Origin: Dehalococcoidia bacterium
GTDB lineage: Bacteria; Chloroflexota; Dehalococcoidia; UBA2979
Direction of reading: 5' to 3'
Length of the DNA: 64,000 nt
NCBI GenBank assembly: GCA_029941115.1
Contig: JAPYRK010000005.1
Coordinates: 1-64,000 of the forward strand
The stretch's first letter is position 1. Every line of letters starts with the position of its first letter. The translations under genes and the position numbers were made by a program. Under the pieces are notes generated by a model. That model was not told the origin of the DNA, did not search any database, and saw nothing but the letters and a program-made list of their open reading frames with translations. Positions 10,660 through 37,053 of the stretch are shown here, one piece after another.

Positions 10660-11094
10660 ATGTCCGGCAATAATTTATCTTCCCAATATTACTCTGCTAT
10701 TGCTATCGAACACTTTGAAAACCCGCGAAATGTGGGGGAGATTGTAGACGCGGATATAGAGGGGCAAGTGGTTAACCCCGTGTGTGGTGATGAAGTTAAG
10801 TTCTTTTTTAGATTCGAAAAAACTGAGGTCGGACAAGAGCGCGTGATAGAGTCAGTCTCCTTTCAGGCATCAGGCTGTCCTGCTACGATTGCGACCTCGT
10901 CTATCGCCACAGAAATGCTTCGAGGGCTGAGCATGACCGAGGCAAGTCAGCTCACCCGGTCGGATTATGCTGAGGCGGTTGGTGGACTTCCGAAATCCAA
11001 GCAGCACTGTTCTGTACTCGCGGAAGCCGTCGTCAAGCAAGTTGCTGCAAATCTTCGGTTTAAAGACGAGTTGAGCAGAAAAGATTCAAGCTGA
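10660..11094 (+). CDS. IscU/NifU-like iron-sulfur cluster scaffold
   Basis: A 144-residue scaffold on which [2Fe-2S] or [4Fe-4S] clusters are built before transfer to apoproteins. The three conserved cysteines are visible: Cys42 in NPVCGDEV (with the following Asp), Cys73 in ASGCPATIATSS and Cys117 in KQHCSVLAEA. The opening YYSAIAIEHFENPRNVGE matches the family. A good AGAGGA precedes the ATG. Its stop overlaps the start of the MocA-like gene by one base (TGATG), so translation is coupled. Fe-S-rich NuoI and NuoG homologues follow, fitting a local cluster-loading role. No cysteine desulfurase is encoded nearby. Confidence 0.9.
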   Translation: MSGNNLSSQYYSAIAIEHFENPRNVGEIVDADIEGQVVNPVCGDEVKFFFRFEKTEVGQERVIESVSFQASGCPATIATSSIATEMLRGLSMTEASQLTRSDYAEAVGGLPKSKQHCSVLAEAVVKQVAANLRFKDELSRKDSS

Positions 11095-11747
11095 TGATTG
11101 GTGCCATTTTACTTGCAGCTGGTGCTTCGACTCGAATGGGATCGCCGAAGCAGTTGCTTAGATGGGGCGATACAACCCTTATCGAGTGGGAAATACGGGA
11201 ACTAAATTGTGCGGGCGTTACTCGGCCAGTCGTTGTGCTGGGTGACAATTCGTCTGAAATAACTGAAGCTATCTCTGGCTTGGACTGCACAATCGTTGTA
11301 AATTCGCAATGGCAGCAGGGCCGCGCTACCTCTCTGAGCACTGGCGCCCGTGCTCTACTTGAGGAAGTGGATAGCAACACTGAGAGTTACCAGTCAGTGG
11401 TCATTCAAAATGTTGATCAACCAACTACCGGTTCTATTATTCATTTGCTTATAACTGAATTAGCCATAAGTGGCGCGGCGCTGGTTCAACCAGAGTATCT
11501 GGACGAGTCAGGATTACCCCATGGGGGCCACCCTGTAGTTCTAAAAGGCCAATTACTAAATGAACTTCAGCAGGTTACTGAAGAGGGTCAAGGGTTGCGA
11601 CAAATCGTTAAGCAGCATGGATCTCAAAGATTAGATATGTCACACGAGCCAATAGTCAAACTTAATCTTAATACTCCGGATCTAGTGAGCGATGCCCGGT
11701 CATTATTTAGATTCAACAATGATTCCGACGAAGAGGCCCGTGCATAG
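11094..11747 (+). CDS. MocA/MobA-like nucleotidyltransferase
   Basis: A 217-residue NTP-transferase of the molybdenum cofactor cytidylyltransferase type. The N-terminal signature LLAAGASTRMGSPKQLL is clear, followed by VVVLGD and QNVDQPTTGSIIH (the conserved Asp of the metal site, usually in NxDQP) and a PHGGHPVVL segment typical of MocA. In relatives it attaches CMP to molybdopterin for xanthine-oxidase-type enzymes. Its coupling to the IscU-like gene suggests a joint role in metalloenzyme maturation. No xanthine-oxidase-type enzyme is present in this window, so the client is not visible. MobA-type guanylylation is the alternative. Confidence 0.85.
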   Translation: MIGAILLAAGASTRMGSPKQLLRWGDTTLIEWEIRELNCAGVTRPVVVLGDNSSEITEAISGLDCTIVVNSQWQQGRATSLSTGARALLEEVDSNTESYQSVVIQNVDQPTTGSIIHLLITELAISGAALVQPEYLDESGLPHGGHPVVLKGQLLNELQQVTEEGQGLRQIVKQHGSQRLDMSHEPIVKLNLNTPDLVSDARSLFRFNNDSDEEARA

Positions 11748-11806: not shown

Positions 11807-12391
11807 ATGATTTACGGTATGGGCGTCGTGAGAGGGATGCTTTTAACATTGAAGCACGTCTTTCGCCCAGCAATCACTGTGAACTATCCAGAGCAAGAAC
11901 GAGAAGTTCCTGCCCGTGCTAGAACGAACTTGCTGTGGTTTGAGGAACGCTGTACTGGCTGTTCTACCTGTGCTCAGGCATGCCCTGACGGTTGTATCTT
12001 AGTTGAAACATCACCGCGATCTGATGGCACCTTAGAAATTGACCGGTATGAGATTGATTTCAGAATTTGTATGTATTGTGGGCTTTGCACAGAGGCTTGT
12101 CCATATCAGGCGATTCAAGCTGGTGGTCGCTACAATGATGCGGTATATCTTTTCGAGAATATGTATCGTGACCGAGATACTTTGACTGGAGAAGCTCAAA
12201 AATACCTTGTCGAGACAGATGGGCGTTATCCCAATGGTCAATTGCAGGATAGTATCCCTTTGATCACTTCAATGCCGACAGCTCGATCTCGAGTTGATGT
12301 GTCGGGCCTTGATGAGACCCCCGGCCCTCAGCGTTTGCAAGGTCGTCATAATTCGCCTATACGCATTGCTCCGAAAGAAGAAGTAAATTAG
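11807..12391 (+). CDS. NuoI-like ferredoxin subunit, orphan copy
   Basis: A 194-residue homologue of complex I subunit NuoI, with two [4Fe-4S] motifs: CTGCSTCAQACPDGCI and CMYCGLCTEACPYQAI. The N-terminus (MGVVRGMLLTLKHVFRP, then VNYPEQ) matches the amphipathic region by which NuoI sits on the membrane arm. The C-terminal 60 residues are polar, with no known motif. A separate nuoI lies in the main operon at 30.6 kb, so this is a second copy. It is followed by the NuoG-like gene after 20 bases, and the two form a module resembling the iron-sulfur part of complex I or a soluble dehydrogenase partner. Confidence 0.88.
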   Translation: MIYGMGVVRGMLLTLKHVFRPAITVNYPEQEREVPARARTNLLWFEERCTGCSTCAQACPDGCILVETSPRSDGTLEIDRYEIDFRICMYCGLCTEACPYQAIQAGGRYNDAVYLFENMYRDRDTLTGEAQKYLVETDGRYPNGQLQDSIPLITSMPTARSRVDVSGLDETPGPQRLQGRHNSPIRIAPKEEVN

Positions 12392-12411: not shown

Positions 12412-14946
12412 GTGGTTGAAATCTCAATAAATGGTAAAACAGTTGATGCTGAACCAGGTCGTCGTCTAGTCGAGGTGATCAAGGAACAGGGAATTACGAT
12501 AACAAATCTCTGTTATATCGATGGCTTGGAGCCATACGCTGGCTGCAGAACTTGTATTGTTGATATAGAGGGTGGCCGTCCGTCATCCCTGCAACTTTCA
12601 TGTACAGCGCAGATTACTGAAGGGCAGGTTGTTCGAACGGACACGACCGAAGTAAAGCAGGCTAGACAGTCTGTGATGTCGGTTATTTTGGCAAATCATC
12701 CAGATCGTTGTCTGACTTGTCATAGGCGAGTTCATTGCATGCCCGGCGATATTTGTCTGCGTGACGATGTGGTAACCCACCGCTGCCTAACCTGTAGTAA
12801 GAATTATAGATGTGAGCTTCAGACATCATGTGAAAATGTGGATCAAGGTGATTTTTCTGAGCCATGGGTTGGCGAGAAACGATCATATTATGAGACTCCT
12901 CCTCCGGAACCCGACCGCGCGAATCCATTTTTAGAATTTGATCCACAGATGTGCATTATTTGTGCTCGGTGCGTAAGGGCGTGTGATGAACTTCGTCACA
13001 CGGGCGCTCTTTCTCTGGCGGGCAAGGGACATACTACGATGATTGCTTTTGGGGCAGGCGGCCAAATTCATGAGAGCGACTGTGATTTTTGTGGAGCTTG
13101 CATTGATGTCTGTCCAACCGCCACACTTATGGAAAAGCCTAACAAATGGAATGGTAGAGCTGACGATTGGACGAGCGCGGTATGTAATTCATGTTCGGTC
13201 GGCTGTACGATCACTTATGGGACCAGCGATCAGGTAGGGTCAGAGAATATTCCAGTTATTGTGCGGCCAGAGCGAATAAATCCAGTATCTCAAGATCAGA
13301 TCTGTGTTCGAGGTAGATTTGGCTATGATGCTATTGGTCCGGAAGATCGACTTACGACCTCACTTGAAAGACAAAATGACCGCTTGGTGCCTAGATCTCT
13401 TTTCGATGCAACGAATCTGGCCGTAGAGCAATTAAGAACAGTAATTGATTCTCATGGCGCGCAAACGATAGGTTTATTAGGTTCACCATTAGCAACCACG
13501 GAAGAGGCGATGGCTCTTTCGGCTTTAGCGGACTCAATAGGAACCCCGAACATTGATTTTTCTCACGGTGTGATTCATAGATCAGTGCTTTCAAGTCTTG
13601 ATCAGGCGCTGGGTACTAACAAACTTTCAGCAGATCTTACAGATATTGAGAAGTCGGCGAGACTAGTCGTAATTGCTACTGATTTAGAAGAATCACACCC
13701 TGGCGTCTCGCTCAGAATAAAGGGTGCCGCGAGAAAGAACCAAGCTAAGGTAGTTTTGATTTCACCACGTTGGAGTGAACTGGATAGATTTGCATGTAGT
13801 GTTTTACGTTGCTATCCAGGTACTGAGGCAAATGTTGCCGATTCATTAGGTAAACTGGAAACCAATCCACCGCTAGGAATTTCAACTGAGCAGTGGAATG
13901 CGGCACTAACTATTGTCGGCTCTAATGAGGAATTTTCAGATGAAATAACTTCCGTCGTTTTTGCGCCGAACGCAATTGACGCTGAAATGGCCAGTGGGCT
14001 AGCCTCAGCCGCCTGTAATTTGGCTATTGGGATGGTTGGTAATACAACTGCCGAGCACCTGTTCTATCTGCCAGTAGATGGTAATACGCATGGCGTACAT
14101 GACGCTGGTATTTTCCCTAAAACAGATGGTAAAGCATTCCGAGAGATTATTTTAGGAGCGATTTCTGGGTCGATAAAAGGGCTTATTATTCACGATGACA
14201 ATCCTATTTTGAATTCTCCAGATACTGACATGATTATCTCTGCACTCTCAAATCTAGAGTCCTTAGTGGTAATCGATTCAGTGAAGTCTACGCTTTCTGA
14301 TTATGCTACGGTGATGCTTTCAGAGGCTGCTTTTTATCATAGATCTGGTTCAATCACGACGGCTGATCGACGAGTATTACTTCACAATTCTATTGACAGT
14401 GGTGTTGAGAAGGAGAAGTCTGGAATAGAAATTATCAAGCGAATAGGTGCCGGACTAGGCTTTGATTTTGATAGAGTATTCTCATATTCCGCGCTTGCTG
14501 AATATCCCTCTGAGGAGGCTCTAGTGCAGCAGCAAGGTCGATTAAGGGCTATACCGGATCAGGCTGTTTTTAAGGCCGAAGTACAGGAGATAGATGTCCC
14601 AATGCGGCGAGTAGACGACCTAGCAGTTTTCACCTCTAGATCGTTGTATACATCTTGGGATGGAGCATCCAGCGCGTCCGAGGAAGCAGATAAATTGGAT
14701 CGAGAGGGGACTGCATGGGTCAATCCAGGAGACGCACAAGAAGCTGGAGTGACTCAGGGTGTTGCGGTCACTCTTCAGAACGGATCGCATTCCATCACTA
14801 TGAAAATTAAGTTAGATGATGGAGTAGCTGCTGGTACCGTCTACGTACCGTCTTACTATCGAGGTGGCGCGATTATGTCTTTGTTTGCCTTGGAGGGTTT
14901 GACTGGCGGACTACCCTCGGTTAAATTAGTCGCCGCTGACGCGTAG
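12412..14946 (+). CDS. NuoG-like iron-sulfur / molybdopterin-fold subunit, orphan
   Basis: An 844-residue protein with the domain order of NuoG and the formate dehydrogenase alpha family. It opens with a [2Fe-2S] ferredoxin domain (Cys34, 45, 48, 64). An enlarged Cys-rich region follows, with H96, C100, C103, C109, then C115, C125, C128, C134 and C140. Next come two ferredoxin motifs (Cys181-191 and Cys224-234), a CNSCSVGC site near 258 with a later QICVRG Cys, and a long molybdopterin-oxidoreductase-like domain with a barrel at the C-terminus. The catalytic Cys/SeCys motif seen in the formate dehydrogenase at 47 kb is not evident, so it is probably non-catalytic like NuoG. The start is GTG with GAGG upstream. 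No nuoE or nuoF is adjacent. Confidence 0.88.
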   Translation: MVEISINGKTVDAEPGRRLVEVIKEQGITITNLCYIDGLEPYAGCRTCIVDIEGGRPSSLQLSCTAQITEGQVVRTDTTEVKQARQSVMSVILANHPDRCLTCHRRVHCMPGDICLRDDVVTHRCLTCSKNYRCELQTSCENVDQGDFSEPWVGEKRSYYETPPPEPDRANPFLEFDPQMCIICARCVRACDELRHTGALSLAGKGHTTMIAFGAGGQIHESDCDFCGACIDVCPTATLMEKPNKWNGRADDWTSAVCNSCSVGCTITYGTSDQVGSENIPVIVRPERINPVSQDQICVRGRFGYDAIGPEDRLTTSLERQNDRLVPRSLFDATNLAVEQLRTVIDSHGAQTIGLLGSPLATTEEAMALSALADSIGTPNIDFSHGVIHRSVLSSLDQALGTNKLSADLTDIEKSARLVVIATDLEESHPGVSLRIKGAARKNQAKVVLISPRWSELDRFACSVLRCYPGTEANVADSLGKLETNPPLGISTEQWNAALTIVGSNEEFSDEITSVVFAPNAIDAEMASGLASAACNLAIGMVGNTTAEHLFYLPVDGNTHGVHDAGIFPKTDGKAFREIILGAISGSIKGLIIHDDNPILNSPDTDMIISALSNLESLVVIDSVKSTLSDYATVMLSEAAFYHRSGSITTADRRVLLHNSIDSGVEKEKSGIEIIKRIGAGLGFDFDRVFSYSALAEYPSEEALVQQQGRLRAIPDQAVFKAEVQEIDVPMRRVDDLAVFTSRSLYTSWDGASSASEEADKLDREGTAWVNPGDAQEAGVTQGVAVTLQNGSHSITMKIKLDDGVAAGTVYVPSYYRGGAIMSLFALEGLTGGLPSVKLVAADA

Positions 14947-26744: not shown

Positions 26745-27122
26745 TTGATGGAATCTGAGACCGCACTATACGTTAATTACCTGCCGGTTTTGCTGGGTGG
26801 GGTGGTAGGATTTATTCTGGTATTCACCGCGCTGATAGGCGCTCGTTTACTTGCTCCGTTTTCTGAGGAAAATCAGAAGTCGACGACTTATGAGTGCGGA
26901 ATGTTGCCTATTAGGCGCGCTTCCACAAATATAGGTATGCGCTTCTATTTGTACGCTATTTTGTTTATAGTTTTCGATGTCGAGGTGATATTTATATTTC
27001 CTTGGGCTATGTCATTTCTTAACGTCGGGGTATTTGCTTATTGGCTGATGGTGCTCTTCATAGGAGTATTAGCATTATCTCTAGGGTATGCCTGGAAGAA
27101 AGGGGCTTTACAATGGCGATAA
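26745..27122 (+). CDS. nuoA: Complex I subunit NuoA
   Basis: First gene of the 11-gene complex I operon, which couples electron transfer to quinone with proton export. The 125-residue product has three membrane helices and the conserved segment [14 protein letters not shown] (usually YECG), followed by [22 protein letters not shown], with the acidic residues of the third position in subunit A. The ATG lies after GTAACATTATTG, without a strong ribosome-binding site. Its last ten bases overlap the nuoB start. No nuoE, F or G is in this operon. Confidence 0.95.
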
Positions 27123-27736
27123 CTCCCGCCGATGCTGCGACGATTCCAGCTGAATCTCCGGTAACAGCACCGGAGATCATTCCGGTACTACCCGCACTAC
27201 CTACTGAACATCCGAGCGAAACCCCACTTTTGACCCCCACGCAGTATGTACCTGGGAAGGCTTTGTATAAGCAAATTCTTCCGGGAATAATTCAAGCGCC
27301 TCTAGATTTACTGTTAGGCGCTTCTCGTAAGTCTTCTCTGTGGCCGATGACTTTCGGCCTAGCTTGTTGCGCAATTGAGATGATTGCCACTTATATGGCT
27401 CATTATGATTTGGATAGATTTGGCATTGTGCCTTGGCCTTCGCCTCGACAGTCGGACGTGATGATCGTTGCCGGAACTGTGACCAAGAAAATGGCTCCTT
27501 CGGTGAAACTCCTTTACGAACAGATGCCGGGGCCTAAGTGGGTTATTTCAATGGGTGCATGTGCGACAAATGGTGGCCCCTATACCCGTTATGATCGCGT
27601 TTTGCAGGGAGTAGATAAGATTGTTCCGGTTGACGTTTATGTGCCCGGCTGCCCACCGCGACCGGAAGCTTTGATCGACTCATTTATTGCTCTGCAAGAG
27701 CTCATCATGGAAGAACGGAAAGTACAAGGTAAATGA
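27113..27736 (+). CDS. nuoB: Complex I subunit NuoB
   Basis: A 207-residue subunit that holds the terminal [4Fe-4S] cluster N2, which passes electrons to quinone. The tandem Cys pair in GLACCAIEM, the Cys in [12 protein letters not shown] and the Cys in [10 protein letters not shown] are all present. The first 50 residues are unusually rich in Pro, Thr, Ala and Glu and form an extension ahead of the conserved core. I start at the ATG overlapping the end of nuoA; an earlier in-frame possibility lies deeper inside nuoA. The last four bases overlap nuoC (ATGA). Confidence 0.95.
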
Positions 27737-28275
27737 CAACCGAGCCCGCTGAGGAGCAGTTCACAAATCAGATAGGTGACCATGACGATATTTGGTCGAT
27801 CGTGGATAATGCCCTGTTGGGAATTGGCGTTACTCGTGAAACTGGTTTCATGGATGTGATAGTCAGTGTCGAAAATGATGAGATAGTTCAGGCGTCCCGG
27901 GCATTACGTGATGATGAGGATTCGAAGTTCGATTATCTAAGATCTCTTACTGCGGTCGATAACACGGCCGATGGAATGGAAGTTGTCTATCACCTCTATT
28001 CAACAACAAAGAAACACAATGTTACGGTGAAAGTATTTCTCTCAAATGAATCTCTGAGACTTCCTACCGTGACGGACGTGTGGCCTGCCGCTAACTGGTT
28101 GGAGCGCGAAGTCGCTGAAATGTTTGGTATAAAATTTTTGGGACATCCCGATCCTAGAAATTTACTAATGCCTGAAGAAATCGATGATACTTTTCCGCTG
28201 AGGAAAGATCACCCATTGGCTGAAATTGAGGTTTTACAGGGTGAGGGCATGGGCTATTCAGGAGAGGAACTCTAA
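27733..28275 (+). CDS. nuoC: Complex I subunit NuoC (30 kDa)
   Basis: A 180-residue peripheral-arm subunit. The family signature is clear: [28 protein letters not shown], followed by FPLRKDHPL. It forms part of the Q-module with NuoB, NuoD and NuoI. The start overlaps the nuoB stop by four bases and the stop abuts the GTG of nuoD, so the block is translationally coupled. NuoC and NuoD are separate polypeptides here, unlike the fused CD subunit in Escherichia coli. Confidence 0.94.
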
Positions 28276-29418
28276 GTGGTCGAGGTTTTATCGCAAACGT
28301 CCGATCAATCGGCAGAATTTGAGACGCAAGATCTTCTACTGAATGTTGGTCCGCAGCATCCGTCTACTCACGGAGTATTTCGTATGGTGATGACTGTTGA
28401 TGGCGAAGTTGTGCGTGACGTGATTCCTTATATTGGCTATTTGCACCGCGGAGCTGAAAAACTTTGTGAGACCATGGATTTTCGGCAAGGTATCGGCTTT
28501 ATGGATCGAACCGAATACCTAGCTGCTTTTAATGCAGAACTATCCTATGTTATGGCTGTAGAGGCGTTAGCGGATCTTGAAGTTCCAGAACGAGCACAAT
28601 GGATCAGGATGATTTTATGTGAGCTCAATCGCTTGTCGAGTCATTTCATGTTCTTGGGCGCATTTGGGGTGGATACCGGTGTATTTGGCACTCCCTTTAT
28701 CTATGCGTGGAGAGAACGAGAAGCACTGATTGATCTTTTTGAGGAAGTTTCTGGTGACAGGATGATGTATGCGTATTTCCGACCAGGCGGAGTCGCCTGG
28801 GATGTTCCAGTCAATTTCGTGGATCGGGTAAGAGAAGTTTTAATATCGGCAACGCAAGGAATTAATGACTTTGACTCGTTGTTATCAGAGAATGAGATTT
28901 TTCTCGCGAGAACACAGGGAGTTGGTTCAATATCTGCGACGCGCGCGATTGCTCTTGGTATGAGTGGACCTTCGTTACGTGCCTCAGGTGTCGATATGGA
29001 TATCAGAAGAGATGAGCCATATCTTAAATATGATCAGATTGACTGGGATGTAATAACTGGTGAGCATGGCGACGTATTTGATCGTTACTACTGCAGAGTG
29101 CTGGAAATGCGTGAGTCCATCAAGATTGTTAAGCAATGCTTGGAGCACCTAGCACCAGGCCCGATACTGCCAGAGAAGCTGCCGCGTATGCTACGGACTC
29201 CTCCCGGCGAAGTATACCTGCGAACAGAGGCTCCCCGAGGTGAATACGGTGTCTATATGGTTAGTAAGGGTGGCAATCGACCCTATCGGTGTAAAGTTCG
29301 ATCCTCATGTCTCTCTAATCTTCAGGCCCTTCAAGAGCTCACTATTGGTGAGTATGTTGCGGACGCAATCGTCATTTTGGGGTCAATAGATATCGTGCTC
29401 AGTGAGGTAGATAGATAA
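28276..29418 (+). CDS. nuoD: Complex I subunit NuoD (49 kDa)
   Basis: A 380-residue subunit forming the quinone-reaction chamber with NuoB. It begins with the signature LNVGPQHPSTHGVFRMVM, and the C-terminal sequence ends in IVLSEVDR, the usual ending of this subunit. Residues of the quinone site (His and Tyr) follow the family pattern. The start is GTG directly after the nuoC stop. The stop overlaps the nuoH ATG by one base. In mitochondria the homologue is methylated by NDUFAF7; a family member of that enzyme is encoded at 8.8 kb. Confidence 0.95.
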   Translation: MVEVLSQTSDQSAEFETQDLLLNVGPQHPSTHGVFRMVMTVDGEVVRDVIPYIGYLHRGAEKLCETMDFRQGIGFMDRTEYLAAFNAELSYVMAVEALADLEVPERAQWIRMILCELNRLSSHFMFLGAFGVDTGVFGTPFIYAWREREALIDLFEEVSGDRMMYAYFRPGGVAWDVPVNFVDRVREVLISATQGINDFDSLLSENEIFLARTQGVGSISATRAIALGMSGPSLRASGVDMDIRRDEPYLKYDQIDWDVITGEHGDVFDRYYCRVLEMRESIKIVKQCLEHLAPGPILPEKLPRMLRTPPGEVYLRTEAPRGEYGVYMVSKGGNRPYRCKVRSSCLSNLQALQELTIGEYVADAIVILGSIDIVLSEVDR

Positions 29419-30554
29419 TGTCGGTCGAGCTTTTTGGTGCTTCACTTAACCCCTGGGTTGATGCAGCAATTAGGCTGCAATTGGTTGTAGGATTCATGAC
29501 TGTCGTAGTGATGGGTCTTATATACGCTGAGCGTAAAATTCTGGCACGATTTCATCAGCGAGTAGGACCACAAAAGACTGGGCCGAGGGGGCTATTACAG
29601 TCCGTAGCGGACGCAGTTAAGTTAGTTGGGAAGGAAGATTTACGCCCGGCGGCGGCGGATCCTTGGACGTTTGAATTAGCGCCATATTTTGTTTTTATTC
29701 CAATATTTCTTGGATTTGTGATAGTTCCTTGGGTTCAGGGATGGAACGTAAGACTTCTTGAGTTGGGGATTTTGTATTTCGTTGCAATTTCATCGGTCAG
29801 CATAGTCGGCTGGGTAATGGCTGGTTGGGGCTCTGACAACAGATACGCGATCATTGGAGCTTTGCGTGCAGCAGCTCAGGGAATTTCGTACGAACTACCA
29901 CTTGTCTTAGCTCTATTATCGGCAGCGATGTTAGCTGGGTCCCTACAACTGGATAAGATCGTTGAATTTCAGAGCGCAGTCCCCTTAATCGTATGGCAGC
30001 CGTTGGGTTTTTTCATCTTTTTCGTGGCAGCACTTGCTGAATTAAATAGAACTCCGTTTGATATTCCTGTTGGTGAGAGTGAAATTGTTGGCGGCCCTTT
30101 CGTGGAGTATTCAGGTATCAGGTGGTCGATGTTTTTCTTAGCTGAGTATGCCGGGATGCTCATAATGGCGTTTGTAGGATCATCAGTATTTTTGGGAGGC
30201 TATTCGTGGCCTTTCGGTGAAGATTTTGGCCTTCCACTCCAGGTGCTTCTGGCCGCTGGTAAAGGTGGATTATTTATCTTCCTGATTTTCTGGGTTAGGG
30301 CCTCGGTTCCGCGACTTAGAATTGATCAATTGATGGGATATTCCTGGAAAATACTATTACCATTTAGCTTTTTGCAGATACTAATAAATGGATTTGTACT
30401 TGTTTATGGCTTGCCGCACATAATACTGCTTATCACTGGGGTATTATCGCTGGGTCTTTTGTTTTGGGTGACTGAGGGAATTGTTCAAAGACCCTTAAAA
30501 TCCAGACGACGACGAGCTAGACCAATAGCAATACAGGAAGCAGAGGTTTCATAA
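29418..30554 (+). CDS. nuoH: Complex I subunit NuoH
   Basis: A 378-residue membrane subunit that links the quinone site to the proton channels. Family marks include YAERKILARFHQRVGPQKTGP near the N-terminus and LAELNRTPFDIPVGESEIVGG in the middle, with the conserved acidic and Arg residues of the E-channel. About eight hydrophobic helices are seen. The last 25 residues are an Arg-rich tail (PLKSRRRRARPIA) that extends beyond most homologues. nuoI follows without a gap. Confidence 0.95.
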   Translation: MSVELFGASLNPWVDAAIRLQLVVGFMTVVVMGLIYAERKILARFHQRVGPQKTGPRGLLQSVADAVKLVGKEDLRPAAADPWTFELAPYFVFIPIFLGFVIVPWVQGWNVRLLELGILYFVAISSVSIVGWVMAGWGSDNRYAIIGALRAAAQGISYELPLVLALLSAAMLAGSLQLDKIVEFQSAVPLIVWQPLGFFIFFVAALAELNRTPFDIPVGESEIVGGPFVEYSGIRWSMFFLAEYAGMLIMAFVGSSVFLGGYSWPFGEDFGLPLQVLLAAGKGGLFIFLIFWVRASVPRLRIDQLMGYSWKILLPFSFLQILINGFVLVYGLPHIILLITGVLSLGLLFWVTEGIVQRPLKSRRRRARPIAIQEAEVS

Positions 30555-31076
30555 ATGAGAGGTATAGCAAAGAGCATGGCTCGTACATTCGCGGTCTTTT
30601 TGCGAAAGCCCGTGACTCGAGATTATCCGACCTATCACAAACCGATTCCTGAACGAGATCGAGCGTTTCCATTACTTTTGTGGGACGAGGATATTCACGA
30701 ACCATTTTGTACAGGATGTCATGCCTGTGAGCGTGCTTGTCCTGTTGAATGCATGACAGTTCTTATGAAAGATAATCCGAATCACAAGAATCTTGACGGC
30801 ACATCTTCTCGACGAAAAATAATTGATAAATTTTGGATTGATTACGCGCGTTGTATGCGGTGTAATATTTGCGTCGAAGTGTGTAATTTTGATGCTATAG
30901 CTATGAATAATACCTGGGAAGGCCATGAAATATCTGTCTATGATAGACAAGATTTGGTGATGGATCTTCCGCAATTACTGTCACAGAGTAGAACTGGCAA
31001 TATCAATGAGTGGGTGCCAGTTCTTGGTCAAACAAACGAGACTATGTCGGAGACCGACGCCGAAGTCAGTAACTGA
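30555..31076 (+). CDS. nuoI: Complex I subunit NuoI, operon copy
   Basis: A 173-residue subunit with two [4Fe-4S] clusters (N6a and N6b) that passes electrons along the peripheral arm to NuoB. Motifs are CTGCHACERACPVECM and CMRCNICVEVCNFDAI; the second lacks the usual Pro after the last Cys. A stretch of about 30 residues separates them, longer than in most NuoI. A second NuoI-like gene, with different flanks, lies at 11.8 kb. Being between nuoH and nuoJ is the conserved position. Confidence 0.94.
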   Translation: MRGIAKSMARTFAVFLRKPVTRDYPTYHKPIPERDRAFPLLLWDEDIHEPFCTGCHACERACPVECMTVLMKDNPNHKNLDGTSSRRKIIDKFWIDYARCMRCNICVEVCNFDAIAMNNTWEGHEISVYDRQDLVMDLPQLLSQSRTGNINEWVPVLGQTNETMSETDAEVSN

Positions 31077-31094
31077 ATAATTGGAATTACTAGA

Positions 31095-31727
31095 ATGCTG
31101 AAACGAATCCCACTTCCTTCTCAATTCGACCGAATTATTATTAGCGGTGGAATTACAGTGGGTGCCATCGGCCTACCGCTGGGTATTGTGCTTGTTGCTT
31201 TGGTTGCATTTGGAGTAATTAGTGCGCCAGAAATGGTTTTCTTTGTTGCGGCATTTATTGTTATTCTCGGTGCATTAGGCTGCGTACTTTTACCTAATAT
31301 AGTGCATGCAGCTTTGTCTCTTACTGCCACACTTATTGGAGTAGCTGCGCTTTATCTTCTTTTAATGTCTGAGTTCTTGGCGCTCGTTCAAGTTCTAGTT
31401 TATGGGGGTGGTGTTGTTTTATTGCTGCTATTTGGCTTAATGATGACCAATGCTCAGGACGATCCAGTAGTAACTGACGGCTCACAAAAACCATTTGCAT
31501 TTTTACTAGTATCGCTACTTATAGGCACGTTCATAACCTTGTTGTTGGCAGGTGACTGGGGGAATCCAACGGCACATGTTGTGCCATTTGAGTTATTTGG
31601 TGAACGTCTATTTAGAGAATTCGCCGTGCCAATTATCATCGTTGCTGTATTGCTTGATGTAGCAATTACGGGTGCGTTGGTCAATGTGCACACGGCCAGT
31701 AGTGATTTACCTGAGGAGTCTGAATAA
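31095..31727 (+). CDS. nuoJ: Complex I subunit NuoJ
   Basis: A 210-residue membrane subunit with about five hydrophobic helices. The middle contains ALGCVLLPNIVHAALSLTAT and LLMSEFLALVQVLVYGGGV, the latter being the strongly conserved J-subunit helix with its Glu and flexible Gly-rich stretch. The N-terminus adds about 30 residues before the first shared helix. The stop overlaps the nuoK ATG by one base (TAATG). Confidence 0.93.
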   Translation: MLKRIPLPSQFDRIIISGGITVGAIGLPLGIVLVALVAFGVISAPEMVFFVAAFIVILGALGCVLLPNIVHAALSLTATLIGVAALYLLLMSEFLALVQVLVYGGGVVLLLLFGLMMTNAQDDPVVTDGSQKPFAFLLVSLLIGTFITLLLAGDWGNPTAHVVPFELFGERLFREFAVPIIIVAVLLDVAITGALVNVHTASSDLPEESE

Positions 31728-32035
31728 TGATTCCCATTGAGTATTTTTTAACACTAGGTGCAATTCTTTTTGGTTTAGGCTTATTTGGGGTATTGTCTCG
31801 CCGTAGTGCGATTTTGATACTAATGGCGATTGAATTGATGTTGGCAGGAGTGTCGATAAATTTTATAGCGTTTGCGTCCTATTTAGATACGGATGCGTTT
31901 AGTGGTTTGATTTTTGCGCTTTTCGTGATTACGGTGGCCGCAGCTGAAGTTGGTTTGGCATTGGGAATTGTTCTGCGTTTATTCAGAGAGAGACGAACGT
32001 CTAATGTGGATGAAGCAAGTGACATGCGCTGGTAG
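31727..32035 (+). CDS. nuoK: Complex I subunit NuoK
   Basis: A 102-residue three-helix subunit. Conserved acidic residues lie in the membrane: Glu in MAIELMLAGVSINF and in AAAEVGLALGIVL, which take part in proton transfer between NuoH/J and NuoN. Length is normal (about 100). It is separated from nuoL by 59 bases that contain a perfect hairpin. Confidence 0.94.
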   Translation: MIPIEYFLTLGAILFGLGLFGVLSRRSAILILMAIELMLAGVSINFIAFASYLDTDAFSGLIFALFVITVAAAEVGLALGIVLRLFRERRTSNVDEASDMRW

Positions 32036-32052
32036 AGAGTAAAAAATAGTAT

Positions 32053-32072
32053 TCGATTTCGGATGAAATCGA
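32053..32072. other. Hairpin in the nuoK-nuoL gap
   Basis: TCGATTTC and GAAATCGA form a perfect 8-bp stem with a GGAT loop, ending about 22 bases before the nuoL GTG and its AGGAGGA site. No U run follows, so it is unlikely to terminate transcription. It could mark an mRNA processing or stability site between the small and large antiporter-like genes. Confidence 0.45.
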
Positions 32073-32094
32073 GCGATAATATGAGGAGGAAATT

Positions 32095-34029
32095 GTGCCG
32101 GATATCTCTGTCACAATAGGAATGCAGCAAGCGTGGCTTCTGCCTGCGATGCCAGTAGTAGCATTCTTGATTATTTCCTTCTTTAGAAAGCTATTACCTC
32201 GGGAAGGAGACTTTCTAGCTATTATCGGTATGCTTGGTATTTTACTAGTCACGCTGTTTATTATTATTGATTTCCAAGGATTTTTCCATGATGGGGAATT
32301 CCACCCGGGTGAAGCAAACGTCTATGCTTTTGATTGGGTACGAATCTCAGCCGACAACTTTTTATTTTTAATTGAATTTTCAACCTATATCGATGCAATC
32401 TCTGTAGTTATGTTGATTGCGATCTCGATTGTCGGCTTGATGGTCGCGATTTATTCAATGGGTTACATGCAAGGTGAGGATAGGTACGGCTGGTATTTTG
32501 CGGTACTGAGTCTATTCGTTGCAGCAATGCTTCTATTAGTGACATCAGGTTCGCTTGTATGGATGTACCTTGCTTGGGAGGGTGTCGGCTTGGCATCTTA
32601 TTTACTTATTGGGCATTATTGGGAGCGTCAATCAGCTGCAGAAGCTGCTAAGAAAGCGTTCATAACAACTCGAATCGGTGACGTCGGTTTGCTAATTGGG
32701 ATTATTTTATTATGGAAGGCCACTGGTAGTTTCGATATACAAACTATTATTGCTGCAGCAACATCTGGACAGATAGGTGAGACTTATCTCACGATAGCTA
32801 TGCTGGCATTATTTGCTGGAGCAGTGGGTAAGAGTGCTCAATTCCCATTACACGTGTGGCTACCTGATGCGATGGAGGGACCAACTCCGGCGTCAGCACT
32901 TATTCATGCAGCGACGATGGTAGTTGCTGGAGTTTATCTGATCGCAAGATTCTCACCAGTCTACGAAGTTGTATTAGTCGCGCGAGATGTAATTCTGTAC
33001 ACGGGATTATTGACCGCGTTTCTAGCGGCGACTATGGGATTGGTTACGTCTGATATCAAGCGCGTGCTGGCTTTTTCGACAATCTCGCAATTGGGCTTCA
33101 TGTTTGTTGCGCTTGGTGTTGGTGCAGTCGGGGCGGCAATGTTTCACGTTTTGACCCATGCTTTTTTCAAGGCGCTTTTATTTCTTGGTTCCGGTTCGGT
33201 TATTCACGCGACTGGGCGACAAGAGGTTGAATATTTGGGAGGACTGCGCCACAAGCAACCAGTAACGGCTGCAACCTTTATCATCGGTTCGCTTGCTCTG
33301 GCGGGAATTCCAATATTTGCCGGCTTTTGGTCGAAAGATGAAATACTTCATGCGGTTTCCGGTTACGCAAGTCCTTTTGTTTATATTGTGCTAGCTGGAA
33401 CAGCCTTGCTAACGGCTATTTATACTACACGACTTGTTCTTCTCACTTTTTTCGGAAGTCCTCGCGATAGATCTGCTTTTGATCACGCCCATGAGAGCCC
33501 AAGCTCGATGACAGGGCCTTTATTGTTACTAGGATTATTGGCAACTGTATCCGGCTTTTTCGTTTTCGATGCTGTGGGAGAACTCTTCGGCTTTAGCGGC
33601 GGTATTGGCTATCTTGTGTACCTGCACCACCCACATGCTTTTCATATCGACTGGGCATTCGCAAGTATTGCTACCGTTTCTTCCCTGACCGGAGTTATCA
33701 TCGGCTGGGTTTACTGGCATGGCGGAGCTGAGCGAGCTATTAAAGCTCGGACATGGTCTCCAGATCTTCATGCTCTGCTTGTCAATAGATATTATCTCGA
33801 TGAACTCTACCAAGGAATTGTTAATAAGGTTGTTTTGGGCCTAGCTGGGATTGTTGCCTGGTTCGACAAAAAAATTATTAATGAGACCGGTGTCGATGGA
33901 GGAGCTCAATTTATTGGGTATTTCGGATATCGCTTGAAGTTTCTGCAGACAGGAAAAATTCCTAATTATGCGCTGGGCATTGCTACTGGAATATTAGTGC
34001 TAAGCGTGATGGTGCTGGCTCGTGCATAG
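32095..34029 (+). CDS. nuoL: Complex I subunit NuoL
   Basis: A 644-residue antiporter-like proton channel at the far end of the membrane arm. It has WEGVGLASYLLIGHYW with the conserved Glu, GKSAQFPLHVWLPDAMEGPTP with the channel Lys, and MFHVLTHAFFKALLFLGSG. The long lateral helix and last membrane helices are represented in the C-terminal third. The start is GTG with a strong AGGAGGA nine bases upstream. Length is in the usual range (600-700). Confidence 0.95.
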   Translation: MPDISVTIGMQQAWLLPAMPVVAFLIISFFRKLLPREGDFLAIIGMLGILLVTLFIIIDFQGFFHDGEFHPGEANVYAFDWVRISADNFLFLIEFSTYIDAISVVMLIAISIVGLMVAIYSMGYMQGEDRYGWYFAVLSLFVAAMLLLVTSGSLVWMYLAWEGVGLASYLLIGHYWERQSAAEAAKKAFITTRIGDVGLLIGIILLWKATGSFDIQTIIAAATSGQIGETYLTIAMLALFAGAVGKSAQFPLHVWLPDAMEGPTPASALIHAATMVVAGVYLIARFSPVYEVVLVARDVILYTGLLTAFLAATMGLVTSDIKRVLAFSTISQLGFMFVALGVGAVGAAMFHVLTHAFFKALLFLGSGSVIHATGRQEVEYLGGLRHKQPVTAATFIIGSLALAGIPIFAGFWSKDEILHAVSGYASPFVYIVLAGTALLTAIYTTRLVLLTFFGSPRDRSAFDHAHESPSSMTGPLLLLGLLATVSGFFVFDAVGELFGFSGGIGYLVYLHHPHAFHIDWAFASIATVSSLTGVIIGWVYWHGGAERAIKARTWSPDLHALLVNRYYLDELYQGIVNKVVLGLAGIVAWFDKKIINETGVDGGAQFIGYFGYRLKFLQTGKIPNYALGIATGILVLSVMVLARA

Positions 34030-34073
34030 AGTATTGATTTATTTGGAAAAAGAACGAATGGAGTTCAGCTAGC

Positions 34074-35561
34074 ATGACAGAAAATGACGGATATTTTCTT
34101 ATAGCTCTTATTGTACTTCCGTTGTTGAGTGCAGTTAGTTTGATGATTATTCCTTCGAAGGAGCGGGCCCTTATTGTGGGACTGACTGCTATTTCCTCAT
34201 TGGTGATGTTTTTCGTTTCCATTTACGTATTTATGGCATATTCCTTTGACGGCTCAACTTTTCAGGGTGTAATGTCTTACCCTTGGGTCGAAAATGTCGG
34301 TTTGCTTGGAGAAAACGGAATTTCTTTAAAGGTTGGTATTGATGGCGTAACGGCGTCACTAGTGTTATTGACCGGAATAGTAGTTTTGCCGGGAACTTGG
34401 GTATCTTGGAAAATACAGCACCGACTTAAAGATTTCTTTATTTTATTTTATATTTTGACCGCGGGTGTCTACGGTGTATTTGTCCTTCTTGATTTATTTT
34501 TCTGGTTTCTTGCCTATGAGACCGCACTATTGCCAATGTATTTATTGATCGCAGTATGGGGTTCTACTCGAAAAGAGTATGGTGCTATGAAACTGATGAT
34601 GATGTTGATGGCAGGATCTATTCCTATTTTTGTTGCTATTTTTGCGCTTTTTGCAGAAGTTGGTCTTGGAACGTTCGATATGGAGGTCCTTCTCAGCGCA
34701 TCGAAGGATGAACACTTTCAGAAAATTTTCTTTCCACTAGTTGTTATCGGCTGTGGCACGCTTGGAGCGATGTTTCCTTTTCATTCATGGTCACCAGACG
34801 GTCATGCTGCTGCACCAACAGCAGTTTCGATGGTGCATGCTGGCGTACTTATGAAAGTTGGTGCCTTTGGCGTTGTTCGTTTAGGGGTACAGATGATGCC
34901 GGAGGGCGCGCTTTTCTGGGGCCCAGCACTTGTCGCTTTGGGTATAACAGCTGCTTTGTACGGAGCGATATCGGCGCTTCGCCAAACCGACATGAAGATG
35001 TTGATGGGATTCTCATCGATTTCTCACATGGGATACGTGTTTGTTGGATTAGGAACCATGAATGTGATAGGAATGACCGGCGCTGTTTTGCAAATGACCG
35101 CTCATGGATTAATGACAGCTCTGTTCTTTTTACTTATCGGAGCTATGTACGATCAGTCGCATAATCGCGATCTTCCGAACTTTAGTGGATTAGCCAAGCA
35201 GATGCCAATTTGGTCAGTATTCTTTGTGTTTGCGTCGCTTGCGTCTTTGGGCTTACCAGGTTTATCAGGCTTTATTGCTGAAGTTCATATATTCATCGGC
35301 GCGTTTAGATCATATCCGATCGTTGGTGGTTTAGCGGTACTTACTGCGGCTATTACTACTACCTATCTGATGAGAGCACTGGCGCAGGCATTTTTTGGCG
35401 AGGCCAATCCGAAGTGGGATTCGTTGAATGAGATGACATGGATTGAACGTTCGGGTGCGGCTGTTTTAGTAGGCGCAATTTTATTGCTTGGCCTTTGGCC
35501 ATCTCCGTGGATTGATCGAATTGCACCGTCACTTAGCCAAATCCCTGGCTTAATGATGTAA
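34074..35561 (+). CDS. nuoM: Complex I subunit NuoM
   Basis: A 495-residue antiporter-like subunit with about fourteen helices. Characteristic segments are AYETALLPMYLLIAVWG (with the conserved Glu) and GAMFPFHSWSPDGHAAAPTAVSM, where the usual LPDAH appears as SPDGH. HGLMTALFFLLIGAMYDQ contains the family's second broken-helix region. It lies 44 bases after nuoL. The change from LPDA to SPDG is a small deviation to note. Confidence 0.94.
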   Translation: MTENDGYFLIALIVLPLLSAVSLMIIPSKERALIVGLTAISSLVMFFVSIYVFMAYSFDGSTFQGVMSYPWVENVGLLGENGISLKVGIDGVTASLVLLTGIVVLPGTWVSWKIQHRLKDFFILFYILTAGVYGVFVLLDLFFWFLAYETALLPMYLLIAVWGSTRKEYGAMKLMMMLMAGSIPIFVAIFALFAEVGLGTFDMEVLLSASKDEHFQKIFFPLVVIGCGTLGAMFPFHSWSPDGHAAAPTAVSMVHAGVLMKVGAFGVVRLGVQMMPEGALFWGPALVALGITAALYGAISALRQTDMKMLMGFSSISHMGYVFVGLGTMNVIGMTGAVLQMTAHGLMTALFFLLIGAMYDQSHNRDLPNFSGLAKQMPIWSVFFVFASLASLGLPGLSGFIAEVHIFIGAFRSYPIVGGLAVLTAAITTTYLMRALAQAFFGEANPKWDSLNEMTWIERSGAAVLVGAILLLGLWPSPWIDRIAPSLSQIPGLMM

Positions 35562-35577
35562 GAGGGGAAGCAAAACT

Positions 35578-37053
35578 GTGACAGATATTTTTGGGCAGAC
35601 ACTTAATCTAAATTATGTTCTTCTGTTACCTGAGATTGTTTTATTAATCTTTTCCATGCTTGTGATTGGAATTGACGCTTTTAAGCGCCAACTGAATATT
35701 TCCGGTAACGTGCCGGTTGGACTCGCTTTGGCGGGTCTGGTAGTTGCCCTAACTTTATCAATTCTACAGGTGAATATGGATGAGGATTTTGCGAGACTTA
35801 TTCAAGTGGACTCTTTTACGAGCTTCTTCAGAATTTTATTTATAGCAATCACACTTGTACTTATCGTTGGCTCACATGAATACATAGAGAAATCAGTGTC
35901 TCATGTAGGTGAGTTTTACGGATTGCTATTGTTGGCAACCGTTGGTGCTATGTTGATGGCTTCGGCCAGAGAACTGCTAACGGCTTACTTAGCGATTGAA
36001 TTATTATCTTTTTCTCTCTACATTGCAGTATCGCTTGCTCGGTCTGATCGACGCTCAGGTGAGGCGTCTCTTAAATACGTGTTGCTTGGGGGAGTCGCAT
36101 CTGCTTCATTGTTATACGGACTTAGCATGATTTATGGAGTGACGGGTGCGACACAGTATCACGAAATAAGTGCGGTTTTGAGTGCTGGAGATACCGGCCT
36201 CACTACGCCGCTATTACTTGGCTTGGTTTTAATCATAGTTGGACTAGGATTCAAGGCTTCTGCGGTGCCATTTCATATGTGGACACCCGATGCATATGAG
36301 GGAGCTCCAATCCCAGTTACTGCTTTCTTATCAGCGACTTCAAAGGCCGCAACAATTGCATTATTCCTTCGTTGGTTTGGCGGGCCACTATTGCCGATAG
36401 CGTCTGACTGGCAATTCATATTGAGTGGGGTAGCAGTGGCGACGATGGTTGTAGGAAATCTTGTTGCGTTGCAACAAGTGAATATTAAGCGATTACTTGC
36501 CTATTCATCGATTGGTCAAATGGGCTATATGCTGATGGCAATAGTGGCAGTTGGTAGCGGTTTTGGGAGCGATGCTACGTCTGCAGTTCTGGTTCATTTG
36601 GCTGGTTACATAATCACTAATCTTTTGGTGTTCATTTCCGTTACTCACTTCTTTAATCAGACAGGTCAAGAGGAGATTACTAGTTTCAAAGGACTTGCAC
36701 AATCTAACCCTTATCTCGCACTAATGATTACTGCGGGTTTGTTTTCGCTCGCGGGTATGCCTCTGTTGGTTGGTTTTTTCACAAAGTTTATACTGTTTCA
36801 AGCGGTTGTTTCAGCCGGACATTTAGGATTAGTAACTGTCGCAGTTGTGGCGTCTACCGTTTCTCTTTATTACTACCTCATGGTTGTCCGTCAAATGTAT
36901 TTGTATGAGCCGGAGGATGGTACCGAGCAATGGAGACTATCTCTAACCGGATATGTGACGACACTGGCTTTGTTTGTCTCATTGGTGGTATTTGGCTTGT
37001 GGGGCACGCCACTCTACGCCGCGGCTGATGCAGCAGCAGCGGGGATGTTTTAG
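35578..37053 (+). CDS. nuoN: Complex I subunit NuoN
   Basis: A 491-residue antiporter-like subunit and last nuo gene. It contains YLAIELLSFSLYIAVSLARSD with the conserved Glu, GFKASAVPFHMWTPDAYEGAP with the channel Lys, and LLAYSSIGQMGYMLMAIVAV. The start is GTG 16 bases after nuoM, with AGGGGAAG upstream. An imperfect palindrome follows its stop and precedes the MBL-fold gene. Confidence 0.95.
   Translation: MTDIFGQTLNLNYVLLLPEIVLLIFSMLVIGIDAFKRQLNISGNVPVGLALAGLVVALTLSILQVNMDEDFARLIQVDSFTSFFRILFIAITLVLIVGSHEYIEKSVSHVGEFYGLLLLATVGAMLMASARELLTAYLAIELLSFSLYIAVSLARSDRRSGEASLKYVLLGGVASASLLYGLSMIYGVTGATQYHEISAVLSAGDTGLTTPLLLGLVLIIVGLGFKASAVPFHMWTPDAYEGAPIPVTAFLSATSKAATIALFLRWFGGPLLPIASDWQFILSGVAVATMVVGNLVALQQVNIKRLLAYSSIGQMGYMLMAIVAVGSGFGSDATSAVLVHLAGYIITNLLVFISVTHFFNQTGQEEITSFKGLAQSNPYLALMITAGLFSLAGMPLLVGFFTKFILFQAVVSAGHLGLVTVAVVASTVSLYYYLMVVRQMYLYEPEDGTEQWRLSLTGYVTTLALFVSLVVFGLWGTPLYAAADAAAAGMF

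Follow-up and report, generated by a model that had tools for sequence, protein, structure and literature searches.

A conserved four-cysteine insert in the His-Cys3 loop of a NuoG-like protein from Dehalococcoidia, a candidate site for an additional iron-sulfur cluster

In respiratory complex I and related enzymes, the chain of iron-sulfur (Fe-S) clusters is generally regarded as almost invariable. A NuoG-like protein from a Dehalococcoidia bacterium (phylum Chloroflexota) raises the question of whether this chain can carry a further member. The gene lies within the first 64,000 nucleotides of contig JAPYRK010000005.1 (assembly GCA_029941115.1), the whole stretch of DNA that was analysed and is referred to here as the window. 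A sequence-only reading of this DNA had drawn attention to a duplicated cysteine block at positions 12694-12834, which correspond to residues 95-141 of the open reading frame (ORF) at 12412-14946, and had proposed that one Fe-S cluster beyond the normal NuoG set might be held there. The evidence described below suggests that an additional [4Fe-4S] cluster beside the cluster termed N5 probably does exist. The loop with the histidine and three cysteines that ligate N5 (the His-Cys3 loop) appears to have gained a 25-residue insert with four cysteines, and this insert would bind the additional cluster.

The block reads H96-P-D-R-C100-L-T-C103-H-R-R-V-H-C109-M-P-G-D-I-C115-L-R-D-D-V-V-T-H-R-C125-L-T-C128-S-K-N-Y-R-C134-E-L-Q, with the spacing H96-x3-C100-x2-C103-x5-C109-x5-C115-x9-C125-x2-C128-x5-C134. 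The His-Cys3 site at residues 96-109 is just as first described, H96, C100, C103 and C109 forming the H-x3-C-x2-C-x5-C ligand pattern of PF10588, the 4Fe-4S His(Cys)3 domain. The PF10588 match over residues 85-109 scores 22.1 bits, under the Pfam gathering cut-off of 27; two relatives, L091 and L120, score 44.7 and 46.4 bits respectively, in two stretches each. C125, C128 and C134 repeat the C-x2-C-x5-C of C100, C103 and C109 with a period of 25, and the histidine of this second block is H123 (not 122), two residues ahead of C125 rather than four. The reported repeat is borne out in this spacing. It does not extend to the remaining residues, as 100-124 and 125-149 are no more alike outside the cysteines than expected by chance (permutation p = 0.27), so that the units are unlike one another and duplication is seen only in the cysteine spacing. 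By the same test a tandem duplication is not supported as the origin of the insert, an ancient duplication being still conceivable.

As judged from the alignments, the single- and double-block forms differ by an insertion. Among 20 lower-ranked relatives, 14 have a single block, typically H-P-x-D-C-L-T-C-x-x-N-x-x-C-E-L-Q, whilst 3 (L232-L234) have lost the block and 3 are poorly aligned there. Aligned with the doubled rows, the 14 with a single block show one gap of some 25 residues, and the insert adds four cysteines. A profile of the family aligns the formate dehydrogenase (FDH) chain 6tg9 in two pieces, as 4-104 and as 125-308, with a single block, CLTCAANGDCELQ, serving both.

All seven cysteines occur at exactly this spacing, with H96, in 50 of the 50 loci at the top of a protein-similarity search which required no motif (L001, L006-L054); the insert is present in none of the 20 lower-ranked matches from the same search. 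A histidine stands ahead of the block in 23 of 23 real ORFs from phylum-scan loci (L061, L062, L064-L084), although His was not part of the pattern used in that scan. Purifying selection acts more strongly on the cysteine block than on the flanking residues. In 31 sequences from the window's family the ratio of non-synonymous to synonymous polymorphism (pN/pS) is 0.064 over H96-C134 versus 0.36 for residues 60-95 and 0.28 for residues 5-59, with pS at about 0.64 and thus near saturation. A larger alignment of 178 rows comprises those of at least 330 amino acids among 193 ORFs with the seven-cysteine pattern, the window protein standing for L001 and some genes appearing twice under two locus identifiers; here the seven cysteines are invariant by construction, and only for L085-L202 did the search pattern require the histidine. 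Two other alignments, A1 with 89 rows and A2 with 86, show no variation at the eight ligands and R117; this is not counted as evidence, because every row except that of the window protein was collected by requiring these residues. The extra ligands suggested initially were C115 and C140. C115 is kept, whereas position 140 has a cysteine in just 47 of 178 rows and H123 is variable, so neither of the latter is a general ligand and both are ruled out by conservation.

The doubled block is not confined to one lineage. A seven-cysteine DNA pattern without the histidine matched in 43 of 400 genomes of the phylum, and a reversed control pattern in 12. When the 43 were sorted by eye, 9 proved to be repeats or chance matches only and 34 to be real, namely that of the bacterium itself, 25 from the 53 other genomes of its class and 8 from the 346 genomes elsewhere in the phylum. 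A scan for the histidine, the seven cysteines and a codon fitting Arg117, covering the genome contigs of 84,980 species, yielded at least 118 loci, 115 of which passed a simple filter. Three of the 118 listed (L098, L132, L156) are low-complexity and L087 (Pseudomonas, a 137-amino-acid ORF) was judged a chance match, leaving 114. These divide into 105 from Chloroflexota, 6 from Methanotrichaceae (filed under Methanobacteriota), and one each from Planctomycetota (a Kuenenia metagenome-assembled genome, or MAG), a MAG filed under Myxococcota and a bacterium without a phylum (HR29), where single MAG contigs may be misbinned and the taxon counts are not prevalence. Among the matches listed, most occurrences of the pattern are in Chloroflexota, with some in Methanotrichaceae and few in other groups. 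It might be argued that the protein is an ordinary complex I NuoG whose motif arose in one genome by chance or through faulty assembly, given its NuoG family resemblance and the separate complex I genes that, by reading, lie at 26745-37053 (+) as nuoA-B-C-D-H-I-J-(K)-L-M-N without nuoE, nuoF or nuoG. The occurrence of the motif in 50 of 50 similarity-found loci and in more than 100 ORFs of named records refutes a chance oddity and leaves this explanation scarcely credible.

Structure models were made with AlphaFold2 for window-protein residues 1-314 (mean predicted local distance difference test score, pLDDT, 85.3; predicted template modelling score, pTM, 0.85) and for the relative L091 (89.3 and 0.84). 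The fold of the window model matches 7t2r_A with Z 28.1 and a root-mean-square deviation (rmsd) of 2.1 Å over 274 aligned residues. The L091 model matches the FDH chain 9ktl_A with Z 26.2 and rmsd 1.6 Å, 271 residues being aligned within 1-297 and 26 residues left over; this is about the length of the insert, and the alignment output does not identify the residues. The matches to HydA-type, complex I and FDH chains confirm, at the level of these models, that the N-terminal module has the NuoG/FDH-type fold. Solved chains were also searched by sequence, twice with phmmer and once with a profile. Within the best 60 of 94, 94 and 150 matches, none of the printed alignments (4, 5 and 3 respectively) was to a solved chain with cysteines at both blocks. 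Most of these alignments break between residues ~104 and ~123, and 9wxb_B, which aligned in one piece, has only one block.

Good, if indirect, support for a further cluster comes from the four cysteines beyond a full His-Cys3 complement. They are retained in all 50 similarity-found loci and lie in an Fe-S loop, at the point where the NuoG-type protein StnC carries an insertion. The StnC insertion is a GltD domain, amino acids 102-565 of NuoG, with two [4Fe-4S] clusters and flavin adenine dinucleotide (FAD) (PMC10482914). The StnC break falls where the 25-residue insert sits, and by analogy the added cluster would be located beside N5. The early proposal of one more cluster thus gains from the conserved cysteines and the StnC precedent, whilst the ligand set proposed with it was partly wrong, in C140 and H123.

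The eight conserved ligands, H96 and the seven cysteines, would form two cubanes, one on C100/C103/C109 and the other on C125/C128/C134, with H96 and C115 as the fourth ligands. In the favoured partition C100/C103/C109/C115 would hold the new cluster and H96/C125/C128/C134 would hold N5, because block 2 has the canonical K-N and C-E-L-Q signature with a helix after it. This assignment is less certain than the existence of the cluster. A different partition, a sub-case of the same explanation whose odds are not to be added to it, would make H96/C100/C103/C109 the N5 ligands and C115/C125/C128/C134 those of the added cluster. Block 1 (H-P-x-x-C-L-T-C) is indeed contiguous with His96 and the canonical helix, and its H-x3-C-x2-C-x5-C spacing is canonical. 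However, the K-N and C-E-L-Q residues lie in block 2, the helix (135-142 in the window model, 135-143 in that of L091) comes after C134, and the models lose confidence in block 1 and the linker rather than past C134. This second partition is possible, though it is not the one expected.

Several observations weigh against the proposal of an added cluster and its assigned ligands. Across residues 101-130 the pLDDT per ten residues drops to 68, 54 and 67 in the window model and 73, 57 and 67 in the L091 model. The neighbouring ten-residue stretches score higher, at 84 and 91 (window and L091) on the N-terminal side and 86 and 90 on the C-terminal side. The period of 25 allows several equivalent placements of the insert, so that its edges are ambiguous and the ligand partition is not fixed; any 25-residue span within residues 97-134 contains four cysteines and leaves a complete set of one histidine and three cysteines. 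The insert is not general, 28 of the 53 sampled class members being without the pattern. On a tree of 107 rows with the insert and 18 without, from which the insert columns were left out, the distribution of the trait takes 5 changes to explain, and supported branches force at least 3 of them; this count is soft, as L232-L234 among the 18 insert-free rows have lost the block altogether and several of the 18 have long branches. The insert would therefore have been gained or lost more than once, and the tree disfavours a single origin. Finally, the neighbouring genes vary. Across the 115 listed loci (L087 included), NuoF-like genes were found near 64, NuoE near 48, NuoI-like near 20, GltD/NfnB near 17, NfnA near 9 and none of the tested genes near 26, and since insert-bearing loci have different neighbours no single partner explains the insert.

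The low model confidence also suits two explanations in which the insert has no part in electron transfer. A site for zinc or another structural metal, serving folding or docking, could be of this form, as four cysteines in a 25-residue loop are equally the usual size of a zinc site and an autonomous metal-held loop might give just such a low AlphaFold2 score. Against this, the site lies within an Fe-S loop of a protein whose other cysteine sets match Fe-S domains, its C-x2-C-x5-C spacing equals that of the neighbouring Fe-S triple, and the same point carries two extra Fe-S clusters in StnC; a structural metal is accordingly judged unlikely. A loop at the surface whose cysteines are reactive or form disulfides, with only N5 bound, is less likely again by a clear step. 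Against it, all seven cysteines are retained throughout the similarity-found loci, ORFs with the same pattern occur in archaea too, and low-potential cytoplasmic oxidoreductases rarely keep disulfides.

An added [4Fe-4S] cluster, the preferred explanation, would reside in a protein with the usual NuoG furnishings (Table 1). The NuoG-type N-terminal fold with N1b, His-Cys3 and dicluster sites is present according to fold search, Pfam and conserved cysteines. The cysteines of the protein stand at positions 34, 45, 48, 64, 100, 103, 109, 115, 125, 128, 134, 140, 181 and on. The cluster names N1b and N7 are presumably apt for the respective cysteine sets. The Pfam domains are Fer2_4, Fer4_Nqo3, Molybdop_Fe4S4, Molybdopterin and Molydop_binding. 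Neither of two family models reaches its cut-off, with 227.9 bits for TIGR01973 (NuoG) versus an equivalog cut-off of 470.05 and 186.1 bits for TIGR01591 (FDH alpha) versus 666.25. As Ile388 replaces the cysteine or selenocysteine (Sec) that ligates molybdenum or tungsten (Mo/W), the molybdopterin domain is probably non-catalytic.

Table 1. Features of the NuoG-like gene and its upstream neighbours (window positions)
Feature	Position	Strand	Basis
NifU-like scaffold	10660-11094	+	PF01592
MobA-like nucleoside triphosphate transferase	11094-11747	+	PF12804
NuoI-like dicluster ferredoxin, 20 bases upstream of the NuoG-like gene	11807..12391	+	Fer4 matches
NuoG-like / formate-dehydrogenase-alpha-like protein, 844 amino acids	12412..14946	+	ORF with GTG start, Pfam, TIGRFAM, solved-chain match
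C34, C45, C48, C64: putative [2Fe-2S] (N1b-type) ligands	12511..12603	+	Cys in 178/178 rows
H96, putative N5-type histidine ligand	12697..12699	+	His in 178/178 rows
25-residue insert, set at residues 100-124, with C100, C103, C109, C115, R117	12709..12783	+	gap in single-block relatives; kept in 50/50 loci; low pLDDT
Second Cys block C125-x2-C128-x5-C134, then canonical E-L-Q helix	12784..12813	+	aligns with single block of 6tg9 residues 121-130; model helix 135-142
C140, ligand proposed in the sequence-only reading	12829..12831	+	not conserved: Cys in 47/178 rows
C181-C191 + C224-C234, ferredoxin-like dicluster	12952..13113	+	Pfam Fer4_7 / Fer4_Nqo3; Cys in 169-178 of 178 rows
C258, C261, C265, C298: putative N7-type Fe4S4 site, molybdopterin domain	13183..13305	+	PF04879; Cys in 168-178 of 178 rows
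I388 at Cys/Sec position of active formate dehydrogenases	13573..13575	+	alignment column

The NuoG-like gene stands apart from the other nuo genes and is paired with the NuoI-like gene, which immediately precedes it in all 30 family loci and also in some others (e.g. L035, L037-L039), although not in L036, L041, L042 or L192. This ferredoxin shares 28% identity with the NuoI encoded among the complex I genes. Two NuoF-like genes occur on other contigs of the same genome (L213, L214), each beside an ORF read as NuoE. The NuoF at L213:6003-7961 (-), of 652 amino acids, has a ferredoxin-like C-x2-C-x2-C in its last ~40 residues, beyond the usual NuoF domains. In a deep-sea Chloroflexi genome a separate nuoEFG operon reportedly adjoins an 11-subunit Nuo (PMC5736913). 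Elsewhere in the window, a 163-amino-acid protein with several ferredoxin-type cysteine motifs (869-1360, +; polyferredoxin-like, by reading) is encoded just downstream of a CoA-transferase-looking protein.

The NuoG-like protein may be the electron-wire subunit of a soluble or complex-I-associated module oxidising NADH (reduced nicotinamide adenine dinucleotide). Placed beside N5, on the wire's outer side, the extra cluster would extend the wire to a second partner. Here that partner would most likely be the NuoI-like ferredoxin, and in some relatives flavoproteins of the NfnB/GltD type. Such a partner route is put forward as a hypothesis.

The sequence-only reading had asked how common the doubling is in the NuoG and FDH families. 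It is not peculiar to this NuoG, as FDHs and GltD-type proteins carry it too; judged by sequence, it is present on NuoG-like proteins, on FDHs with Cys or Sec, and on GltD fusions. Among 120 ORFs from the matches listed (L087 included), a regular expression for the Mo-ligand position assigned 66 to no motif, 13 to Cys, 9 to Sec and 10 to GltD-like, with 22 cut off, the no-motif class including L091 and L174_1398, which carry Cys and Sec by alignment. L091, L086, L120 and L134 score above the FDH alpha cut-off. In L127, L141 and L168 a GltD-like or GltD-type protein adjoins a Sec-FDH, and both carry the doubled block. A doubled-block protein at L218:9689-13561 (+) has immediately after it another NuoG/FDH N-terminal module, this one with one block only (L041b); the frame runs past one TGA, probably selenocysteine. 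The window itself encodes an FDH alpha at 47029-49866 (-), with 719.8 bits to TIGR01591 (above the cut-off) and an N-terminal module from which the whole His-Cys3 block has been lost (L002-L004).

FdhA-like proteins with the insert occur in six loci of Methanothrix or other Methanotrichaceae (L086, L106, L122, L128, L134, L201). The Cys ligand is kept in the five that were read far enough, L201 being cut off. GltD/NfnB-like genes are found in L086, L106, L128 and L134, and NfnA-like genes in L086 and L134. Formate use by Methanothrix is called controversial in a passage of PMC7382037. For this genus the insert marks FdhA-like proteins with GltD/NfnB-like genes nearby in 4 of 6 loci.

If the proposal is correct, a conserved extra site in the N5 loop would add a cluster position to the complex I-related family. 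Distributed over a bacterial class that is largely uncultured and seen in Methanothrix records too, it would also serve as a concrete marker, amenable to mutation, of a second route for electrons. No account of such an insert or cluster was found in the open-licence literature of PubMed Central, which is weak evidence of absence. It is tempting to go further and regard the N5 loop of NuoG-type proteins as a general socket for extra electron entrances, filled by a whole flavoprotein in StnC and by a one-cubane, 25-residue loop in Chloroflexota and Methanotrichaceae. On this rather doubtful generalisation, NuoG with the NuoI-like ferredoxin would here turn the NADH module into a two-donor hub, for NADH and ferredoxin, feeding complex I.

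A number of parallels can be drawn with known systems. The NuoG of respiratory complex I (TIGR01973; Nqo3, NDUFS1) shares the predicted fold of residues 1-314, with Z 25.1 to 3i9v_3 at 2.6 Å over 274 residues, as well as the N1b, His-Cys3, dicluster and N7-type cysteine sets and the lack of Cys or Sec at the Mo-ligand position; unlike it, the window protein has the four-cysteine insert of 25 residues in its His-Cys3 loop. The alpha subunits of FdsA-type NAD-dependent FDHs (6tg9, 9ktl) include the solved chain with the best sequence score, 6tg9_A. The single-block N5 loop of 6tg9, HPLDCLTCAANGDCELQ, is aligned once with each half of the doubled block; 6tg9 is without the insert, and the window protein differs again in having Ile at the Mo-ligand position. 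In the HydA-type subunits of electron-bifurcating hydrogenases (7t2r, 8a6t) the N-terminal module fold is common with the window protein. The single block of 7t2r is aligned twice and the printed alignment of 8a6t ends at block 1, the insert being seen in neither. A precedent is StnC, or the NfnABC large subunit (8oh5, 9bov), which is NuoG-type and has an insertion at the same point, adding Fe-S clusters; residues 2-101 and 123-241 of the window protein match 4-101 and 561-673 of 9bov. In StnC, electrons run through C7-C6-C5-C4-C3 from the FAD-NADPH site towards StnAB, the clusters of the GltD domain passing them into the NuoG wire, and the Fdh domain is catalytically inactive (PMC10482914). 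There, however, the insertion is a whole GltD domain, whereas in the Dehalococcoidia protein it amounts to 25 residues only.

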